DNA from: an uncultured bacterium
Lineage (GTDB): Bacteria > Bacteroidota > Bacteroidia > Chitinophagales > Chitinophagaceae
DNA: 54,750 nt
NCBI GenBank assembly: GCA_903834825.1
Contig: CAILKQ010000102.1
Span: forward strand, 1-54,750
Direction: 5' to 3'
Below are positions 4,778-12,594 of this stretch, piece by piece. Below the pieces are notes generated by a model that saw only the letters and a program-made list of their open reading frames with translations, was not told the origin of the DNA and did no database searches. The number at the start of each line of letters is the position of its first letter. The first letter of the stretch is position 1. A program made the translations under genes and the position numbers.

Positions 4778-4793
4778 TGTTCCACGTGGAACA
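4778..4793. promoter_or_regulatory. parS: parS-like ParB binding site 2
   Basis: This is the second exact copy of the palindrome TGTTCCACGTGGAACA, located 117 bases before mnmG. Two identical 16-mers within 232 bp are not expected by chance, and the sequence matches the parS consensus. Confidence 0.82.
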
Positions 4794-4910: not shown

Positions 4911-6779
4911 ATGTTCCAAAAGTATGATGTTATTGTGGTTGGTGCGGGCCATGCGGGCTGTGAGGCTGCTGCCGCTGCGGCCAATATGGGAAGCAAGACC
5001 CTTCTTGTTACCATGAACCTTCAGACAATTGCCCAAATGAGTTGTAATCCTGCCATGGGCGGTATTGCAAAGGGGCAGATTGTTAGGGAAGTTGATGCCC
5101 TGGGAGGATATTCTGGTATCGTTACCGACCAGACCATGATCCAATTCAGGATGTTGAACAGGTCTAAGGGCCCGGCCATGTGGAGTCCAAGGGCACAGAG
5201 CGACCGCATGCTTTTTTCCCAACGGTGGAGAGAGTTGTTGGAAAACACCCCCAACCTCGATTTTTACCAGGACATGGTCAATGGCCTGATCGTAAAAGAC
5301 GGCAGGGTCAGGGGAATCGTCACCGGAATGGGCAATGAGATAGAAGCCAAGTCCGTAGTGTTGACCAATGGAACCTTTTTAAATGGGATCATCCATATTG
5401 GTGAAAAGCAGTTTGGTGGTGGAAGAATGGCAGAGCGTGCCGCTACTGGTATTACGGAACAACTGGTGGAACTTGGATTTGAAAGCGACAGGCTGAAAAC
5501 TGGAACACCTCCGAGGATAGATGGGCGCAGCTTGGACTACTCCAAGATGGAGGAGCAGAAGGGAGATGATGAAATAACAGGGTTTTCTTACCTGAACATT
5601 GAAAGAATCAGGCCAGAACAACAAAGAAGTTGCTGGATTGCCTATACCAATCAAACGGTTCACGATACCCTCAAAACCGGATTTGACAGGAGCCCCATGT
5701 ATGCGGGTCGTATCGAAGGAACCGGCCCAAGGTATTGCCCAAGCATAGAAGACAAGATCAATCGTTTTGCTGATCGCGACAGACACCAGCTGTTTGTTGA
5801 GCCGGAAGGGTGGAATACGGTAGAGATTTACCTGAACGGGTTTTCCACGTCTTTGCCCGAAGATGTTCAATATAAATCCCTGGTCAAAATTCCAGGCTTT
5901 GAAAATGTTAAGATGTTCAGACCGGGTTATGCCATCGAATATGATTATTTTCCACCACACCAACTACATTACTCGTTGGAAACCAAGCAGTTACGTGGTT
6001 TATTCTTTGCGGGACAGATCAACGGTACCACTGGATATGAAGAGGCTGCCTGTCAGGGATTGATGGCCGGAATGAATGCACACAACAATGCATTTGAGCG
6101 CGAGCCCCTTGTTTTGAAAAGAAGCGAAGCCTATATCGGGGTATTGATTGACGACCTGATTACCAAAGGAACCGAAGAGCCTTACAGGATGTTTACTTCC
6201 AGGGCGGAGTTCAGAACCCTCTTGAGGCAAGACAATGCCGATATTCGCCTCACCGAAATCGGTCATCAACAAGGATTGGCCAGTGAAGAAAGGTACCAGC
6301 AAGTAAAAATCAAGAAGGACAATGTAGGCCAGATCATCAAAAAGTTTAGCGAAATTTCCGTTGAGCCCGAATCCATGAATGCGTTTTTTGAGGCAGCAGG
6401 CTCCGCAGCCCTGACCCAAAAACAGAAAATATCGCAACTGGTACTGCGCCCGGGAATTGGTGCCAAAGAGATGATTGAACATTCAGAACAACTGAAAACC
6501 GAGTTTGGTCATTATGCACCGCTCGAAATTGAACAAGCGGAGATTCAGATGAAGTATGCGGTTTACCTTGAGAAGGAGAGAGAAATGGTCCAAAAAATGG
6601 CACAAATGGAAGAGCTTGAAATCCCCGAAACCTTTGACTATACAAGGGTTCAGGCCATCGGCACAGAAGCGCGTGAAAAGCTGAAAAAAATTCAACCCAA
6701 GACGCTTGGCCAGGCATCCCGTATATCAGGAATCAATCCCAGCGATGTTCAAATCCTGATGGTATACATGGGAAGATAG
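4911..6779 (+). CDS. mnmG: tRNA uridine 5-carboxymethylaminomethyl modification enzyme MnmG (GidA)
   Basis: This 622-residue FAD protein, with MnmE, installs the cmnm5 group on wobble uridine 34 of certain tRNAs. The dinucleotide fold is at the N-terminus (G11-x-G13-x2-G16, sequence GAGHAG). Further family signatures are the R-L-K-T-G-T-P-P-R loop, the F-A-G-Q-I-N-G-T-T-G-Y-E-E-A FAD motif and a helical C-terminal tRNA-binding domain. The ATG at 4911 starts the FAD fold directly and follows a promoter box; an upstream extension to 4869 is open but lacks family similarity. gidA is often origin-proximal in bacteria, which fits the parS-like sites just upstream. The crp-type gene follows after 25 bases. 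Confidence 0.96.
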   Translation: MFQKYDVIVVGAGHAGCEAAAAAANMGSKTLLVTMNLQTIAQMSCNPAMGGIAKGQIVREVDALGGYSGIVTDQTMIQFRMLNRSKGPAMWSPRAQSDRMLFSQRWRELLENTPNLDFYQDMVNGLIVKDGRVRGIVTGMGNEIEAKSVVLTNGTFLNGIIHIGEKQFGGGRMAERAATGITEQLVELGFESDRLKTGTPPRIDGRSLDYSKMEEQKGDDEITGFSYLNIERIRPEQQRSCWIAYTNQTVHDTLKTGFDRSPMYAGRIEGTGPRYCPSIEDKINRFADRDRHQLFVEPEGWNTVEIYLNGFSTSLPEDVQYKSLVKIPGFENVKMFRPGYAIEYDYFPPHQLHYSLETKQLRGLFFAGQINGTTGYEEAACQGLMAGMNAHNNAFEREPLVLKRSEAYIGVLIDDLITKGTEEPYRMFTSRAEFRTLLRQDNADIRLTEIGHQQGLASEERYQQVKIKKDNVGQIIKKFSEISVEPESMNAFFEAAGSAALTQKQKISQLVLRPGIGAKEMIEHSEQLKTEFGHYAPLEIEQAEIQMKYAVYLEKEREMVQKMAQMEELEIPETFDYTRVQAIGTEAREKLKKIQPKTLGQASRISGINPSDVQILMVYMGR

Positions 6780-6804
6780 CCTTAACTTGAAACCACACCC
6801 AAAG

Positions 6805-7449
6805 ATGACAACACTGAGCCCCAAAGAATTGATTGGCATATTTCCATTGTTTGATCTTCCCTTGTCAACATTTTTGCATGAGCACGGCGAAAGCAAAACA
6901 TTTGAGCAGGGTTCAATTCTCATGAAACCGGGGCAATTTTTCAAATATGCCATGCTCATTGTAAGCGGAAGGGTAAAACTTTATCGCGAGGGAGAAGATG
7001 GGGAAGAGTTTTTTATGTATTTTTTAGAAAGGGGAAACGCTTGTGCGCTCAGCATGATGTGCATGGCGCGCAGCCAGACCAGCACCATCATGGCGGTTGC
7101 CGTTGAAGAAACAGAAGTCATCATGATTCCCATCCAACACATGGATACGCTCATGAAAAATTATAGTGCCTGGTATCATTTTGTGATTGAAACCTACCGA
7201 AACAGGTTTGAAGAATTGCTTACCGTTGTTGACCAGATTGCCTTCAAGAACATGGATGAGAGACTGGAGTGGTACCTGAAAAGACAGGCAAAATCTTTTG
7301 GAAACACACTTCCATTGACTCACCAGCAAATTGCCCACGACATCAACTCTTCCCGGGAAGTGGTATCCCGTTTATTGAAAAAAATGGAGAAGACCGGCCT
7401 GGTTTCCATGGAGCGCAACAGCATTGTTTGGAAGGGAGGGGCGTTTTAA
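6805..7449 (+). CDS. Crp/Fnr family transcriptional regulator, candidate sulfur-responsive
   Basis: This 214-residue regulator has an N-terminal cNMP-binding-like beta-roll (about 12-115), a dimer helix (about 118-140) and a C-terminal winged helix. The recognition helix reads S-S-R-E-V-V-S-R, keeping the R-E-x3-R pattern by which E. coli CRP contacts TGTGA. The phosphate-binding cassette that binds cAMP in CRP is not recognisable. In its place is C80-A-L-S-M-M-C86, the only two cysteines of the protein, so a thiol or persulfide signal is plausible. The ATG at 6805 is preferred to a TTG at 6787. It sits 25 bases behind mnmG. Two TGTGA-N6-TCAC(A/G) operators flank the neighbouring sulfur genes. 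Confidence 0.88.
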   Translation: MTTLSPKELIGIFPLFDLPLSTFLHEHGESKTFEQGSILMKPGQFFKYAMLIVSGRVKLYREGEDGEEFFMYFLERGNACALSMMCMARSQTSTIMAVAVEETEVIMIPIQHMDTLMKNYSAWYHFVIETYRNRFEELLTVVDQIAFKNMDERLEWYLKRQAKSFGNTLPLTHQQIAHDINSSREVVSRLLKKMEKTGLVSMERNSIVWKGGAF

Positions 7450-7464
7450 TAAACCCACTCTTCG

Positions 7465-7480
7465 TGTGATAAATATCACG
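7465..7480 (+). promoter_or_regulatory. Crp-type operator upstream of the YeeE pair
   Basis: TGTGATAAATATCACG fits TGTGA-N6-TCACA in 9 of 10 positions and is a near-perfect palindrome (GTGATA/TATCAC arms). Its centre (7472.5) is 36.5 bases from the last base of a -7-like box at 7502-7509. This is exactly the geometry of the operator in front of tsdA. With a start point five bases after the box, the centre is at -41.5, a class II activator position. Confidence 0.75.
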
Positions 7481-7501
7481 TTCCGATACAATAAGTTTCG
7501 T

Positions 7502-7509
7502 CAATTTTG
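7502..7509 (+). promoter_or_regulatory. -7-like box for the YeeE operon
   Basis: CAATTTTG matches five of the six defined positions of TAnnTTTG (first base C). A suboptimal box is what an activator-dependent promoter would need. The ATG of the first gene is 37 bases further on. Confidence 0.4.
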
Positions 7510-7546
7510 ATCTATAGTCGTTTAGCGACAATTTAAAAAATACACG

Positions 7547-8116
7547 ATGACATTTATTGAACTGATCAAACAACCTTGGCCATGGTATGTGGCCGGACCC
7601 ATCATTGGATTGATGGTGCCAGCTTTGTTGATTTTTGGCAACAAAACATTTGGAATTTCATCATCGCTAAGGCATGTCTGTGCAGCGTGTTTGCCTGCCA
7701 AGATTCCATTTTTCCAATACGATTGGAAAAAAGAAATATGGAACCTTTTCTTTGTTTTCGGAATTTTTCTGGGAGGAATCATTACAGCCTTGTATTTTAA
7801 AAATGATGCAGCTGTGGTTGTTGATCCAAAACTGATGTCAGAACTCTCCGGATATGGCATTGTTGATTTCAGCGGATTGGTTCCTGCTGATATTTTCAGT
7901 TGGGCTTCTCTTGCAACACCAAGGGGTTTTATCTTGATGGTGGTTGGTGGATTTCTTGTTGGCTTTGGTACACGCTATGCGGGTGGTTGCACTTCGGGAC
8001 ATGCCATCATGGGTTTATCCAACCTTCAACTTCCATCATTGATTGCTACCATATCTTTTATGGCTGGTGGTTTCATCATGGCCAACCTTATCCTTCCCTT
8101 CATCCTTTCACTGTAA
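7547..8116 (+). CDS. YeeE/YedE family transporter subunit (larger half)
   Basis: This 189-residue integral membrane protein of the YeeE/YedE (sulfur transport, PF04143) family has about five hydrophobic segments. E. coli YeeE (TsuA) carries thiosulfate, using conserved cysteines in its pore. Here the C-terminal motif is G-G-C-T-S-G-H, and a further C-A-A-C lies after the first membrane segment. In Bacteroidota the transporter is commonly split into two consecutive half-size genes, as here. It is 12 bases upstream of the second half, behind a Crp-type operator and next to soxB/tsdA-like genes, so import of thiosulfate or another sulfur species is likely. The exact substrate is inferred. Confidence 0.87.
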   Translation: MTFIELIKQPWPWYVAGPIIGLMVPALLIFGNKTFGISSSLRHVCAACLPAKIPFFQYDWKKEIWNLFFVFGIFLGGIITALYFKNDAAVVVDPKLMSELSGYGIVDFSGLVPADIFSWASLATPRGFILMVVGGFLVGFGTRYAGGCTSGHAIMGLSNLQLPSLIATISFMAGGFIMANLILPFILSL

Positions 8117-8128
8117 AACTGTACCATC

Positions 8129-8632
8129 ATGATAATAAATAAAAAAGATACGAATACTGATTTTGAAGTGAGGTCGCTGGATGCGATTGGCAAAAATCAA
8201 GAAGCTGTAGAATTGCCCATGTGGCATAACCTCAAGTACCTTGCTTTTGGAGTAGCCTTCGGCATTGTATTGATAAAGTCTGAGGTGATCTCGTGGTTCC
8301 GCATCCAGGAAATGTTTAGGCTGCAAAGTTTTCACATGTTTGGTGTGATTGGTTCCGCAGTTGCAGTGGGGGCACTCTCTGTTTTTCTGATCAAAAAACT
8401 CAAGATCAAATCAATACATGGCGAAGAAATTATTCTTCCTGAAAAAACATTCAACAAAGGACAGATTTATGGTGGATTGCTTTTTGGTTTTGGTTGGGCT
8501 ATGACGGGAGCCTGCCCTGGCCCCATGTTTGCTCAATTGGGCTATGGCGCAATAGCAACATCAGTAATCATTTTGATGGCCATTGTAGGCACCTGGGTAT
8601 ATGGCCTGATTAGAGAAAAACTTCCCGCATAA
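8129..8632 (+). CDS. DUF6691/YeeE family transporter subunit (smaller half)
   Basis: This 167-residue membrane protein is the second half of a split YeeE/YedE transporter. It has a short cytosolic N-terminus, then membrane segments from about residue 35, and the family motif G-W-A-M-T-G-A-C-P-G-P with the conserved pore cysteine. It lies 12 bases after the larger half and ends 16 bases before the convergent soxB stop. The two halves most likely form one pore for thiosulfate or a related sulfur compound. The cysteine motif differs between the two halves (GGCTSG versus GACPGP), as is usual for the pair. Confidence 0.87.
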   Translation: MIINKKDTNTDFEVRSLDAIGKNQEAVELPMWHNLKYLAFGVAFGIVLIKSEVISWFRIQEMFRLQSFHMFGVIGSAVAVGALSVFLIKKLKIKSIHGEEIILPEKTFNKGQIYGGLLFGFGWAMTGACPGPMFAQLGYGAIATSVIILMAIVGTWVYGLIREKLPA

Positions 8633-8648
8633 ATCAAGAACATTTATT

Positions 8649-10457
8649 TTACCTGAATTCATACCCGAAGCCCATCAATTGGGTGAGCAAAGAATTGGGT
8701 GCATCGGTTGCGGTGCAACGGCCTTCGAGTTTTGGAGAGATGGGAGAGTGTAGCTTCAAATATTCTTCAATCACACTGTGCAGGGTAGCGCCCAGCCTTT
8801 TGGGATTTTTAACTCCCTCAACGCGACAAATGGTTGTATCGGGATCTCCCTCGCGTTCGCAGGCAACGAAGCTGTAGGTTTTTTGAAGATCCAGCGGCTG
8901 GTCTGCAACTTTGATCCAGTTCACCCTTTTTCCTGCATCGTTTCCAATGGTGAAGTTGACCTCCATTCCTTTGAAACGCACTACCCATCCACCAAAGCGT
9001 TTCCCGGGATCTTTGGCAAAAGCGTTTTGCAATTCTTTCTCCATCCATTCCAAGAGTTGTTTTCCGGTGATGAATCCTTTTTTTGCTTCGCTGTCAACCG
9101 GCAACATGTTCCACAAATAATCGACGGTGATGATGGCCTCTCCGGTTTTTGGATCGGGTACCAACGGAGGGCAAAAACGAAATCCATTGCTGAGTGCAAT
9201 GTCTGGCTTGAACTTCCACATGATCGCATCGGTGATGAAATTGTCCATCGGTGTTTCAATAACATAGTAACGCATCAATGGTGTTGTTGATTTTCCAATG
9301 ACGCGGTTCAATTCTTTTTTATAAGGAGCCCGGGCTTTTTCAACCATTCTTTTCATTTCCTCATCCTCCTTGTACAATACAGGATCAACATCCAACAGTT
9401 GATAGGTATGGTCTTTTACTATACCATTCTCAACAACAATATCAAGCTTTGCAATGAAGGATCCGAAGGCGCCAGGCTCAGTTACTTTTGTATGTAGACC
9501 TTGAATGGGTGTGCGCACGCGCTCGTGTGTATCTGCACCAAGGATATAGTCAACCCCCTTGACCTGCGGCATGTTGGAAAGACCGACCTGTTGTGCCAGC
9601 CCCATGTGCGTAAGCAGAAAAACCATATCACACAGTTCATATTCTTTTAGAATTTTTACATATTTCGCAACATTCAATTCCGGCAGGGTGAATTTGATGC
9701 CGTCGCTGTAAGCAGGAGATTGGCGCTTTGGCGTAAGGGGATCATTGTATCCAATAAAGCCAATTTTGATGCCTGCAATATGCTTTACAAAATAGGGTGG
9801 GAAAATCAGGTCGCCTTTCATTTCGTCTTTGGTATCGTGGAACATGTTGGCACATACTTTCACGCCATCATAGGCAAACATGTCTTTCATCATCATCTCT
9901 TTTCCATAGACCACCTCCCAGTTGCCTGGCAACATGATGTCGTAGCCTATATTGTTCATGAGTGGTATGATGGCCGTGCCCTTGCTCATGGCAGCAACGC
10001 CGCTTCCCTGAAAGCAATCGCCGCCATCAATCAACAACGTATTTGCCCTGTTCTGGTTGCGGATGGTATTGATCATGGATTTCATGGTTGCGAAGCCGCC
10101 CCGTTTTTTGAAAACAGGCTTTCCGTTTTCCATGAAAAACTCATCGTGGGTCGTCAATTGTGAATGGATATCTGCCGTATGCAACAGGGTCAGTTTTGTG
10201 GCCCTCCCTTCGCGAACCGCTTTGTTGTTGGCCATTGCATTTTCCTTGTAGGCGGCATTTTCGTTGTTGAGGGCTGATGCGGCAACCGGAGTGCCGATCA
10301 ATCCTCCGCCAATGCCGAGACCCAGGCCCAGTCTGGTTGATTTTCTCAGAAAATCCCTTCTGCTGTTTTCGGAAAGCGCAACATGCATTTCTTTTTCTGC
10401 CTTGCTGATGGAGGCGTCGTGGCAGGAGTTGCAGGAGCAGTTGTTGGTGTGCGACAT
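8649..10457 (-). CDS. soxB: SoxB-like thiosulfohydrolase/5'-nucleotidase family protein, Tat-exported
   Basis: This 602-residue protein has a Tat signal (R33-R34-D-F-L, hydrophobic stretch to about 62) and a calcineurin-like metallophosphatase domain. Metal-site motifs are A-D96-I-H98, G-G-D147, T-H-M and G-A-D-T-H, followed by the 5'-nucleotidase C-terminal domain. The sequence G-N179-W-E-V-V-Y-G resembles SoxB (G-H-W-E) rather than nucleotidases (G-N-H-E). SoxB hydrolyses sulfate from thiosulfate bound to the carrier SoxYZ, but no soxYZ, soxXA or soxCD is present here. The N-terminus before the Tat motif carries C-S-C-N-S-C-H, which is unusual. The start at 10457 lies two bases after the tsdA stop, so the genes are cotranscribed and probably coupled. 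A nucleotidase role is not excluded. Confidence 0.82.
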   Translation of the reverse strand: MSHTNNCSCNSCHDASISKAEKEMHVALSENSRRDFLRKSTRLGLGLGIGGGLIGTPVAASALNNENAAYKENAMANNKAVREGRATKLTLLHTADIHSQLTTHDEFFMENGKPVFKKRGGFATMKSMINTIRNQNRANTLLIDGGDCFQGSGVAAMSKGTAIIPLMNNIGYDIMLPGNWEVVYGKEMMMKDMFAYDGVKVCANMFHDTKDEMKGDLIFPPYFVKHIAGIKIGFIGYNDPLTPKRQSPAYSDGIKFTLPELNVAKYVKILKEYELCDMVFLLTHMGLAQQVGLSNMPQVKGVDYILGADTHERVRTPIQGLHTKVTEPGAFGSFIAKLDIVVENGIVKDHTYQLLDVDPVLYKEDEEMKRMVEKARAPYKKELNRVIGKSTTPLMRYYVIETPMDNFITDAIMWKFKPDIALSNGFRFCPPLVPDPKTGEAIITVDYLWNMLPVDSEAKKGFITGKQLLEWMEKELQNAFAKDPGKRFGGWVVRFKGMEVNFTIGNDAGKRVNWIKVADQPLDLQKTYSFVACEREGDPDTTICRVEGVKNPKRLGATLHSVIEEYLKLHSPISPKLEGRCTATDAPNSLLTQLMGFGYEFR

Positions 10458-10459
10458 GG

Positions 10460-11440
10460 TTATTTTTTTCTTGATTCAATGATGGGCTTGAAGGGACCAA
10501 ACTTGTGTTGCTCTTCTGTAAAGCCATCTGTATACGGGCCAAAGGGATGGTCGATCGGTTTCTTTGAAACGTTGGGCCAGTCTTTGCTCAGGTCTTTGGA
10601 GGGGCGTGGCCTGGAATTCACAAAGGCAGCCACATCCCAACTTTCTTCATCCGTCAAAGCAGGGTTCCGGTGGGTTGCCTGGTTCAAGGGCATGTTATCG
10701 CGCACGTATCCCGCGAAGCGGGAAAGGCGAAACAAGCCCGCACCATTGTTATAACTATTATCTCCCCAGAGCGGAGGATAGGTATAGGACTTTGCATCTG
10801 CAGCCATCAGCCCCTGGCCATTGGCGCCATGACAGGACTGGCATTTTGCGGTGTAAACGGCAAGGCCTTTTTCAGGATTGGCCGCACGATCGAGGTATTC
10901 GGGCGGCTTGATGCCGGCACCTTTTGGAACTGAATCTTTTTCAACGCCGTGTCCAACCCATTTGATGTAAGCAATCATGGCTTTTATTTCGCGGCTGTTG
11001 CTGTCGAGGGCTTGGCCGTTCAGGCTTCTTTCCATGCAATCGGTTACACGCTTGTAAACGGTTTCAATCGATCCGCTCCTGTCGCGAAACTTCGGATAGT
11101 TGGCGGCAACAGCGCCATAATTATTTCCCCATGTTTTTCTTCCTGCATTGAGGTGACAGTTCTGGCAATTCATGCCGTTGGTAACATGTGCCACGGAACC
11201 ATTGGGCCCAAGGTATTTGGAGGTATTGGCAATGAGCTCTTCGCCGTAAATCACCAATGCTCTTTCTTCTCCCTGCACAGACCTGTCGGTGAACAAACTT
11301 GGGGCCGTCCATCCCTCACTAATGAGCGCCGGTATTTCCGTTTTGGGTTTGTTGACAAATTCAATGGTTTGAATGGAGATGGCCAGCAACAGTGCAATGG
11401 TTATTGAATAGATGATCCAGTTTTGTTTTGAATTGTTCAT
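10460..11440 (-). CDS. tsdA: TsdA-like dihaem c-type cytochrome (putative thiosulfate dehydrogenase)
   Basis: This 326-residue membrane-anchored periplasmic cytochrome has one N-terminal anchor (residues 8-28) and two haem c sites, C92-x2-C95-H96 and C200-x2-C203-H204. C135 in the segment R-V-T-D-C-M-E-R-S-L-N-G corresponds to the cysteine that ligates the active-site haem of TsdA enzymes. Met250 is a candidate axial ligand for the second haem. TsdA joins two thiosulfates to tetrathionate (or the reverse) and passes electrons to cytochrome c; SoxXA-type enzymes are related. It is the first gene of the tsdA-soxB pair, behind a perfect Crp-type operator. The direction of the reaction in vivo cannot be read from sequence. 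Confidence 0.83.
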   Translation of the reverse strand: MNNSKQNWIIYSITIALLLAISIQTIEFVNKPKTEIPALISEGWTAPSLFTDRSVQGEERALVIYGEELIANTSKYLGPNGSVAHVTNGMNCQNCHLNAGRKTWGNNYGAVAANYPKFRDRSGSIETVYKRVTDCMERSLNGQALDSNSREIKAMIAYIKWVGHGVEKDSVPKGAGIKPPEYLDRAANPEKGLAVYTAKCQSCHGANGQGLMAADAKSYTYPPLWGDNSYNNGAGLFRLSRFAGYVRDNMPLNQATHRNPALTDEESWDVAAFVNSRPRPSKDLSKDWPNVSKKPIDHPFGPYTDGFTEEQHKFGPFKPIIESRKK

Positions 11441-11460
11441 TGGCTGTACTTATGGAGAAC

Positions 11461-11468
11461 TAAATATA
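11461..11468 (-). promoter_or_regulatory. -7-like box for tsdA-soxB
   Basis: On the minus strand the octamer is TATATTTA, five of six defined positions of TAnnTTTG. Its last base is 36.5 bases from the centre of the Crp-type palindrome and 21 bases from the tsdA ATG. Confidence 0.45.
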
Positions 11469-11489
11469 ATTCAATTCGAAAGGATGGCA

Positions 11490-11505
11490 TGTGATTTTGG
11501 TCACA
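11490..11505 (-). promoter_or_regulatory. Perfect Crp-type operator between tsdA and DUF6526
   Basis: TGTGATTTTGGTCACA is a 10/10 match to TGTGA-N6-TCACA. Its geometry relative to the tsdA -7 box equals that at the YeeE promoter. It also lies upstream of the divergent DUF6526 gene, but at a different distance (31.5) from that gene's TATATTTA box at 11522-11529, so the tsdA side is the likelier target. Confidence 0.78.
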
Positions 11506-11546
11506 GGGCCCAGAAACGCCTTATATTTACGCACTAAACTTCTATC

Positions 11547-11975
11547 ATGACCGAACAGCAATTTGCCAACCACGCGCGCATGCATCCGCTTTATCATTAT
11601 GTAACAGCACCATTGGTATTGGTTGGTCTGATTGGAAGCATTGTCAACCTTGTCAATAGCGAGCCCAATAATTTTTACAGCGCATCGTTGATTGTGTTGG
11701 TGTTTATTATTCTCCTTTTCATCGGAGCGATGTTGAGAACATATGCCTTGAAAGCGCAGGATAGGGCGATTCGGGCTGAAGAAAGCCTTCGCTATTTTAT
11801 CATTTCTGGAAAGGCGATTGACGCGCGCTTGAGGATGGGACAAATTGTTGCACTGCGCTTTGCACCAGATGCTGAATTTGTTGCCCTGGCGGAAAAGGCC
11901 GCCACGGAAGGACTTTCCGGAAAACAGATCAAGCAACAGATTCAGCAGTGGAAGGGCGACTACCGCCGGATATAA
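11547..11975 (+). CDS. DUF6526 family membrane protein
   Basis: This 142-residue protein has two adjacent transmembrane segments (about 18-36 and 48-65). A charged, helical C-terminal half follows, rich in A, E, K and R and ending in a Q-Q-I-Q-Q-W-K-G-D-Y-R pattern. It matches the uncharacterised Bacteroidota family DUF6526. No function is known. It is divergent from tsdA across a promoter region that carries a Crp-type site, which may or may not affect it. The SOUL-family gene follows after 22 bases, so the two may be cotranscribed. Confidence 0.75.
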   Translation: MTEQQFANHARMHPLYHYVTAPLVLVGLIGSIVNLVNSEPNNFYSASLIVLVFIILLFIGAMLRTYALKAQDRAIRAEESLRYFIISGKAIDARLRMGQIVALRFAPDAEFVALAEKAATEGLSGKQIKQQIQQWKGDYRRI

Positions 11976-11997
11976 ACCTTAATATGAATACCTTGAT

Positions 11998-12594
11998 ATG
12001 AAAAAGATGTTGATTACCCTTTTGGTCATTTTTATTGTTTTCGTTGCATTCCAATCCTTTATGGCAATATCCACTTCAAAAATAGAAAAACAGCCTTACC
12101 GGGTGGTGAAAAAGGAAAGCGGTTTTGAGGTGAGGTTCTATCCTCCTGCTACTTTTGCTACCATGAGGTCATCTGCAAAATCCTACAGGGAGCTTTCCAG
12201 CAGCGGCTTCAGAAAAATTGCAGGCTATATTTTTGGCAACAATGAAACCTCTGCCAAGATTGCGATGACATCACCAGTACACATGGACATCAACCAGGAT
12301 GGGTCTACAATGAGCTTTGTGATGCCTTCTCAATATGACATCAAAAGCCTCCCGCGGCCCAATGATGCCAAAGTAGAGATACATGAATCTCCCAGTGAAT
12401 ATGCTGCCGCCATTGAGTTTGGTGGATATGCCAACGATGAAAGCATCAGCAAGTATGCAGAGGAACTTAAAAAATCACTGGAAGAAAAAGGCATAAAACC
12501 CATCGGCCATTACAGGTACCTGGGATACAATCCGCCCTACCAACTGATTGGAAGAAAAAATGAAGTCATTGTTGCTGTTGAATGGAAGGAATAA
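11998..12594 (+). CDS. SOUL family haem-binding protein
   Basis: This 198-residue protein has an N-terminal membrane anchor or signal (residues 4-24) and a SOUL/HBP domain. Family features are the start E-K-Q-P-Y-x-V, the central I-A-M-T-S-P-V-H-M segment and the terminal Y-N-P-P-Y stretch. SOUL proteins bind haem or tetrapyrroles in animals; bacterial members are poorly studied. The anchor places the domain on the periplasmic side or in the envelope. It follows DUF6526 after 22 bases, and the convergent pxpC gene ends 18 bases downstream. Confidence 0.88.
   Translation: MKKMLITLLVIFIVFVAFQSFMAISTSKIEKQPYRVVKKESGFEVRFYPPATFATMRSSAKSYRELSSSGFRKIAGYIFGNNETSAKIAMTSPVHMDINQDGSTMSFVMPSQYDIKSLPRPNDAKVEIHESPSEYAAAIEFGGYANDESISKYAEELKKSLEEKGIKPIGHYRYLGYNPPYQLIGRKNEVIVAVEWKE

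Follow-up and report, generated by a model that had tools for sequence, protein, structure and literature searches.

A putative Crp-type activator of a sulfur regulon with conserved promoter geometry in Bacteroidota

The window analyzed in this study, a stretch of 54,750 nucleotides from an uncultured bacterium of the Chitinophagaceae (Bacteroidota; assembly GCA_903834825.1, contig CAILKQ010000102.1), carries between positions 6805 and 11505 a gene for a Crp/Fnr-family regulator (crp), followed on the plus strand by two genes for half-size YeeE transporters (yeeE1 and yeeE2) and then, on the minus strand, by soxB and tsdA, so that the two operons are convergent (Table 1). An earlier reading of this locus made without database searches (the sequence-only reading) had placed the regulator between the two operons, which was wrong, as the gene lies upstream of yeeE1. 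We consider it probable that this protein is a cyclic AMP (cAMP)-independent class II activator of a sulfur regulon of Bacteroidota, which would here be reduced to yeeE1-yeeE2 and tsdA-soxB. Comparison with related genomes supports the operator, its spacing, the gene set and their co-occurrence with the regulator.

Two palindromes of the type TGTGA-N6-TCACA precede tsdA (10/10 match) and yeeE1 (9/10 match), as had been described, and the recomputed distance between each operator centre and the end of its -7-like box was again 36.5 bases. The palindromes alone are not significant, since the observed counts do not exceed the chance expectation: one exact copy was found in the source genome (2.6 Mb), where approximately 2.9 are expected, and the window holds 19 matches with up to two mismatches compared to 32 expected from shuffles. 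Among the 46 palindromes with up to one mismatch in the source genome, a box scoring at least 5/6 at 36.5 bases is restricted to the two window sites, the next best being six orientations with a 4/6 box, all inside open reading frames of at least 837 bases (all orientations were scored except a single one at L179, a site close to the end of its contig). Besides, searching for palindrome and box together (the composite promoter) with up to three mismatches returned 10 places, in which the two window sites had one mismatch and the other eight had three, compared to 5 places for the reversed control pattern.

Table 1. Features of the regulator locus (positions in the window)
Feature	Position	Strand	Remarks
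Crp/Fnr-family regulator	6805..7449	+	ATG at 6805, TTG at 6787 possible; directly downstream of mnmG; PF00027, PF13545 and PF00325 above cut-off
Recognition helix S183-R-E-V-V-S-R189	7351..7371	+	S183, R184, E185, V186, S188 and R189 invariant in 50/50 orthologues
Cys80-Cys86 codons (C-x5-C)	7042..7062	+	Candidate thiol sensor pair (predicted function); both invariant in 50/50 orthologues
Operator 1, TGTGATAAATATCACG	7465..7480	+	9/10 match; kept in relatives
-7 box, CAATTTTG	7502..7509	+	End 36.5 bases from operator 1 centre; predicted start ~7514
yeeE1, half-size transporter, Sulf_transp family	7547..8116	+	PF04143
yeeE2, half-size transporter, Sulf_transp/DUF6691	8129..8632	+	PF20398 and PF04143
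SoxB-like thiosulfohydrolase	8649..10457	-	Best NCBIfam match TIGR04486, 264 bits; best PDB match 2wdc
TsdA-like dihaem thiosulfate dehydrogenase	10460..11440	-	PF21342; best PDB matches are thiosulfate dehydrogenases (4wqc, 4wq7 and others, E 1e-42)
-7 box, TATATTTA	11461..11468	-	End 36.5 bases from operator 2 centre
Operator 2, TGTGATTTTGGTCACA	11490..11505		10/10 match, sole exact copy in the source genome; 57.5 bases from tsdA start

Conservation was assessed in 60 loci obtained through family searches with YeeE1 and TsdA, which matched 171 and 139 of the 294 family genomes, respectively. These loci were hand-picked, mostly from the top of the match tables, and are neither a random sample nor independent of each other; the genus labels and the presence or absence of an orthologous regulator were also assigned by hand from the search tables, with a cut at approximately E 1e-47. 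The upstream places considered were the 30-150 bases ahead of yeeE1, or of tsdA where this gene leads. In genomes that carry the orthologous regulator, 22 of 51 such places held a site with up to one mismatch, compared to none of 23 in genomes that lack it, and with up to two mismatches these values were 29/51 and 0/23. Over the same 51 places, 29 permuted half-sites gave a mean of 0.17 (maximum 1) at up to one mismatch and 3.1 (maximum 9) at up to two, and other spacer lengths gave 0-6 and 1-11 sites, respectively. Counted by genus (up to two mismatches), sites were present in 13/20 genera with the orthologue and in 0/16 without it (Fisher, 3e-5), three genera standing on both sides. Moreover, site and box occurred before any cluster gene in 33 of 40 loci with the orthologue and in 2 of 20 without it, and orthologues adjoin sulfur genes in many loci. 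The conservation expected of relatives that keep the genes was therefore observed, since in many of them site and spacing persist ahead of yeeE, tsdA and other sulfur genes and track the orthologue.

Individual genomes illustrate this pattern. In the same-genus genomes G053 and G250, yeeE lies apart from tsdA-soxB (on two contigs in G053 and at a distance of ~57 kb on one contig in G250), and all four promoters retain an operator 55.5-57.5 bases ahead of the start (55.5 and 57.5 for tsdA), with the box kept at 36.5 bases in both yeeE promoters. The genome G139 has the regulator and no yeeE site, and its operon head before the TauE gene, where its sole operator was located, shows CGTGATAAATATCACT with CAATTTTG correctly placed. 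Two genomes without an orthologue (G203 and G286) have no site.

The distance between operator and box proved to be strict. Of the 76 sites that fall outside the query genes, 36 have a TTTG ending exactly at 36.5 bases and 46 a TTTR; at no other distance from 20 to 60 bases did TTTG occur more than two times, and there was no peak on the other strand. The box consensus across 47 distinct sites is CAnnTTTGC (C 36, A 42, G 37), in which only the counts for C, A and G are informative because the sites were picked for a TTT near the expected place. Within the same loci, the first base of NAnnTTTG upstream of genes with a site was C in 14 cases, T in 7 and G in 1, compared to T 42, A 15, C 10 and G 9 upstream of those without a site (Fisher for C vs T, 1.7e-4). 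A weakened -7 box combined with an operator near the place of the -33 element is a prediction of class II activation. The claim that the boxes deviate from the consensus thus stands for the regulon promoters of relatives, which mostly have C for the ordinary T, and in the window this signature is restricted to the yeeE promoter because the tsdA box keeps T.

The regulator belongs to the Crp/Fnr superfamily, as it combines a domain resembling those that bind cyclic nucleotide monophosphates with a Crp-type helix-turn-helix (HTH), recognized by three Pfam families above cut-off, and its predicted structure (mean pLDDT 87) gave Foldseek matches to NtcA, CRP and 3dv8. Residues R184, E185 and R189 align with the base-reading R180, E181 and R185 of CRP, and the R-E-x3-R helix pointed out in the sequence-only reading is invariant, together with C80 and C86, in all 50 orthologues (at least 43% identical). 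CRP contacts cAMP through G71, E72, R82, S83, T127 and S128, which correspond to A, a gap, Q, T, L and L in the window regulator (because of this gap, the place of E72 is uncertain by one residue); none of these contact residues is the common one among the 50 orthologues, and R82 is retained in three. The protein scores 51 bits on the NCBIfam model for CRP (PRK11753), below its cut-off of 266. FNR is marked by N-terminal iron-sulfur cysteines, and the absence of any Cys before residue 80 indicates that the window regulator has no FNR-like N-terminal cluster. It is also not of the BigR/SoxR kind, BigR being a member of the ArsR family, as only Crp-type Pfam domains were found. Reading of the operators by another Crp paralogue was considered and rejected, since only this regulator passes the cut-off among the four PF13545 matches (E <= 0.01) in the source genome, which is 93.5% complete. 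The description of a self-contained regulon accordingly fits the source genome, with one Crp-type HTH above cut-off and two composite sites, and is too narrow for the relatives, in which the regulon is wider. Of the 294 family genomes, 118 carry the regulator at the cut of approximately E 1e-47 (177 at E 1e-38, paralogues included), and no viral relatives of it were found.

The proteins encoded by the two operons are related to known sulfur enzymes and transporters and differ from the curated families. The TsdA-like protein retains two CxxCH haem motifs and, in the alignment to 4wqc (E 1e-42), the Cys that corresponds to the ligand of haem 1. The SoxB-like protein falls below the cut-off of the SoxB model TIGR04486 (550 bits), with 2wdc still as its best PDB match, and YeeE1 and YeeE2 score 42 and 19 bits on the TsuA model NF052577 (cut-off 400), being two half-size chains and not one full-length protein. 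A search for SoxY in 8 genomes gave no match, but it lacks a positive control, as all 14 control genomes also stayed below the cut-off. Clusters of many relatives additionally hold a TauE exporter, an MBL-rhodanese of the persulfide dioxygenase type, a rhodanese and a porin. The source genome has no clear orthologue of TauE or MBL-rhodanese (best matches of 36% identity over 97 residues and 28% over 131; the second MBL type of L078 was not searched for), so that the window regulon looks reduced, possibly through the loss of TauE and MBL from between the operon-head promoter and yeeE1.

A sister clade of regulators provides a further view of base specificity. A related regulator, sharing 33.5-35.7% identity with that of the window, stands at the head of the sulfur cluster in 7 of the 60 loci; its helix reads R-V-V-V-S-R in six cases and R-A-V-V-S-R in one (L135), and more operators of this type were gathered by a search with a sister regulator. 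Before TauE/MBL genes, the Glu-type loci present TGTGA in 33/40 cases and TGTAA in 1, whereas the sister-type loci present TGTAA in 30/32 and TGTGA in 1 (Ala-type), the most frequent distance of TTTR being 36.5 bases for both. When 102 distinct regulators were compared allowing any base at the tested operator position, the sites of Glu regulators had G in 52 cases and A in 2, and those of Val regulators had A in 52 and G in 0. By regulator, the Glu class comprised 39 with G, 2 with A and 14 without a site (including the distant Crp proteins L221 and L242), the Val class 35 with A and 6 without a site, and the remainder five Ala regulators (2 G, 2 A and 1 without a site, G280 being counted twice) and one Ser regulator with A. 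Among the Ala-type proteins, L135 and L262 (G280) go with a TGTGA operator and L282 and L299 with TGTAA. Besides, the protein at L130:9861-10442 (G249) has a Glu-type helix, is nearer to the Val-type regulators and is accompanied before TauE by a hybrid operator, TGTAACATAGGTCACC, with one half of each kind. Ebright is said to have found in 1984 that an altered CRP with Val at position 181 reads TGTAA. In the available text of PMC11253593, Glu181 of E. coli CRP contacts the C of the corresponding base pair.

Based on these observations, the Crp-family dimer would bind TGTGAY-N4-RTCACA through R184-E185-x3-R189 independently of cAMP and, placed at -41.5, the class II position, would recruit RNA polymerase to promoters with a weakened -7 box (CAnnTTTG in most relatives), switching on genes for sulfane sulfur and thiosulfate. 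The two half-size YeeE transporters may then import a sulfur species, and the TsdA-like and SoxB-like enzymes may oxidize thiosulfate via tetrathionate. Binding, activation, signal and substrates are all predictions; the signal would most likely be a reactive sulfur species read by the invariant Cys80 and Cys86, which suggest thiol sensing. Tentatively, and with far less confidence than in the regulon itself, we propose that a reactive-sulfur-sensing Crp-type activator, with an invariant C-x5-C in the region where the cAMP pocket formerly lay, is widespread in Bacteroidota and has split into two sulfur regulators, Glu/TGTGA and Val/TGTAA, by a switch of one residue and one base under constant promoter geometry.

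When 84,980 genomes were scanned for exact copies of the composite promoter, 45 contigs were obtained, 38 from Bacteroidota and 7 from other groups. In approximately 18 of the 45, the promoter is followed by sulfur-set genes (TauE, yeeE1, MBL-rhodanese, rhodanese or tsdA) or by the gene of the regulator. The composite promoter was also observed before genes for another Crp/Fnr protein with N-terminal C-x2-C cysteines (L210:1815-2528 and L230:2967-3665), possibly autoregulated, and before RidA-like genes (L215:2312-2698, L240:3301-3690, L209, L228 and L252, from Chitinophaga, Pedobacter, Olivibacter and Chryseosolibacter), which were assigned by PF01042 in L215 and by a similar N-terminus in the other four. 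These occurrences indicate that the operator type is common to more than one regulon in the phylum.

Several results weigh against a sulfur activator acting through one strict promoter. The other 27 of the 45 contigs in the scan are not followed by the sulfur set, 7 of the 40 loci with the orthologue have no composite promoter, and 22 of the 51 upstream places show no site even at two mismatches, part of them because yeeE or tsdA sits within a longer operon. The tsdA box of the window keeps T and ends in A, and the base five positions later, the presumed start, is T and not a purine. In G053 the tsdA box is shifted outward by one base (37.5), and in G250 it reads TATATTAG, so that neither of the two nearest tsdA promoters has the strict composite; control of both operons by one regulator, as previously suggested, is therefore supported by the wider comparison and less so by these tsdA boxes. 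In addition, the tree of regulators shows essentially one ancient split between the Glu and Val classes, which makes this a single strong contrast and not many. Finally, C-x5-C is also present in 3dv8, the Crp/Fnr protein of Eubacterium rectale that is the closest solved relative by sequence, and thiol sensing thus stays a proposal.

The last point also bears on the alternative that survives best, namely that the regulator activates both operons in response to oxygen, nitric oxide or the general redox state, the sulfur genes being one output only. This is possible, if somewhat doubtful in our view: of the two cysteines, only the first is retained in the Val-type sister regulators that accompany similar clusters, and in other Bacteroidota the composite promoter is also located before RidA-like genes and before Crp/Fnr proteins that have N-terminal cysteines, but in the source genome it precedes sulfur genes only, the orthologues are neighbours of such genes, and the window regulator lacks the FNR-like cluster. 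Repression, with release by a sulfur species as for BigR and yeeE-yedE-pdo2, seems unlikely. Repressors do control yeeE-like genes elsewhere, as in the available texts on BigR (PMC7315123) and on SoxR and sHdrR (PMC11582611), but here the distance between operator and box is fixed, the operator occupying the expected place of the -33 element, and most relatives have C for T in that box; both features fit class II activation better. Chance palindromes with a coincidental geometry would agree with the number of exact copies expected per genome and with the shortage of two-mismatch sites in the window, but are extremely improbable given the conservation of site and spacing, the co-occurrence with the regulator and the match between Glu/Val and operator in relatives.

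Outside the regulon, mnmG directly precedes the regulator in the window (4911-7449) and in three same-genus genomes (L077, L079 and L080), and the regulator may thus be co-transcribed with this housekeeping gene. A palindrome at 4778-4793, TGTTCCACGTGGAACA, upstream of mnmG, resembles the parS consensus, and G250 also carries TGTTCCACGTGAAACA upstream of mnmG (~1859 in L080, turned round), which suggests that the locus is near the origin. The gene for DUF6526 (11547, plus strand) was considered as a target of the site at 11490 and rejected, as the plus-strand box at 36.5 bases scores 1/6 and DUF6526 is present in none of the loci of the 60 relatives. The sequence TATATTTA also occurs on the plus strand at 11522-11529, 31.5 bases from the operator 2 centre, and DUF6526 may have a separate promoter overlapping this operator. 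No Rfam match was obtained within 6500-12000 and no terminator-like site was seen in 8500-8760.

The proposed system shares features with several characterized ones. E. coli CRP likewise combines the TGTGA-N6-TCACA operator with the R-E-x3-R helix and has a class II site at -41.5, the position predicted here, but it is a global regulator with cAMP contacts, whereas here these contacts are not conserved, the promoter is of the Bacteroidota -7 type and the regulon is local and devoted to sulfur. The yeeE-yedE-pdo2 operon of Acinetobacter and Serratia, as far as described in the available text of PMC7315123, resembles the clusters of relatives in its YeeE pair and persulfide dioxygenase type enzyme, and the dithiol sensor of BigR parallels the one proposed for the Crp-type protein; BigR, however, is a repressor from another family, whereas the Crp-type protein is a presumed activator. 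In Hyphomicrobium, SoxR and sHdrR are associated with thiosulfate genes and with the SoxT YeeE-like transporters for import and signalling, but they are ArsR-type repressors of an sHdr/Sox pathway, and the word Crp is absent from the available main text (PMC11582611). Erythrobacter flavus 21-3 also has TsdA and SoxB together, in a zero-valent sulfur pathway, and Bacteroidetes are listed among the carriers of both enzymes; the available text mentions no Crp regulator or YeeE pair (PMC7608252), and the SoxB-like protein of the window is below the NCBIfam cut-off. The failure to find SoxY in 8 genomes would fit this TsdA-SoxB route (PMC7608252).

Altogether, the parts are ordinary and their combination is new: a presumed Crp-type sulfur activator regulon of Bacteroidota, for which sequence comparison makes a strong case, with strictly built promoters and a sister clade whose specificity is altered. 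In agreement with the sequence-only reading, the open-licence literature searched yielded no account of a YeeE/TsdA/SoxB unit under Crp control in this phylum, and the regulators of YeeE-like genes described in the available texts are the repressors BigR, SoxR and sHdrR (PMC7315123, PMC11582611). If correct, our interpretation would give a function and a list of targets to a regulator carried by 118 of 294 family genomes, and would provide for the phylum a clean signature of activator-dependent promoters, consisting of the operator, 21 bases and CAnnTTTGC. Moreover, it would offer two naturally occurring regulators that apparently arose through a joint change of one residue and one base, a pair that is directly testable.

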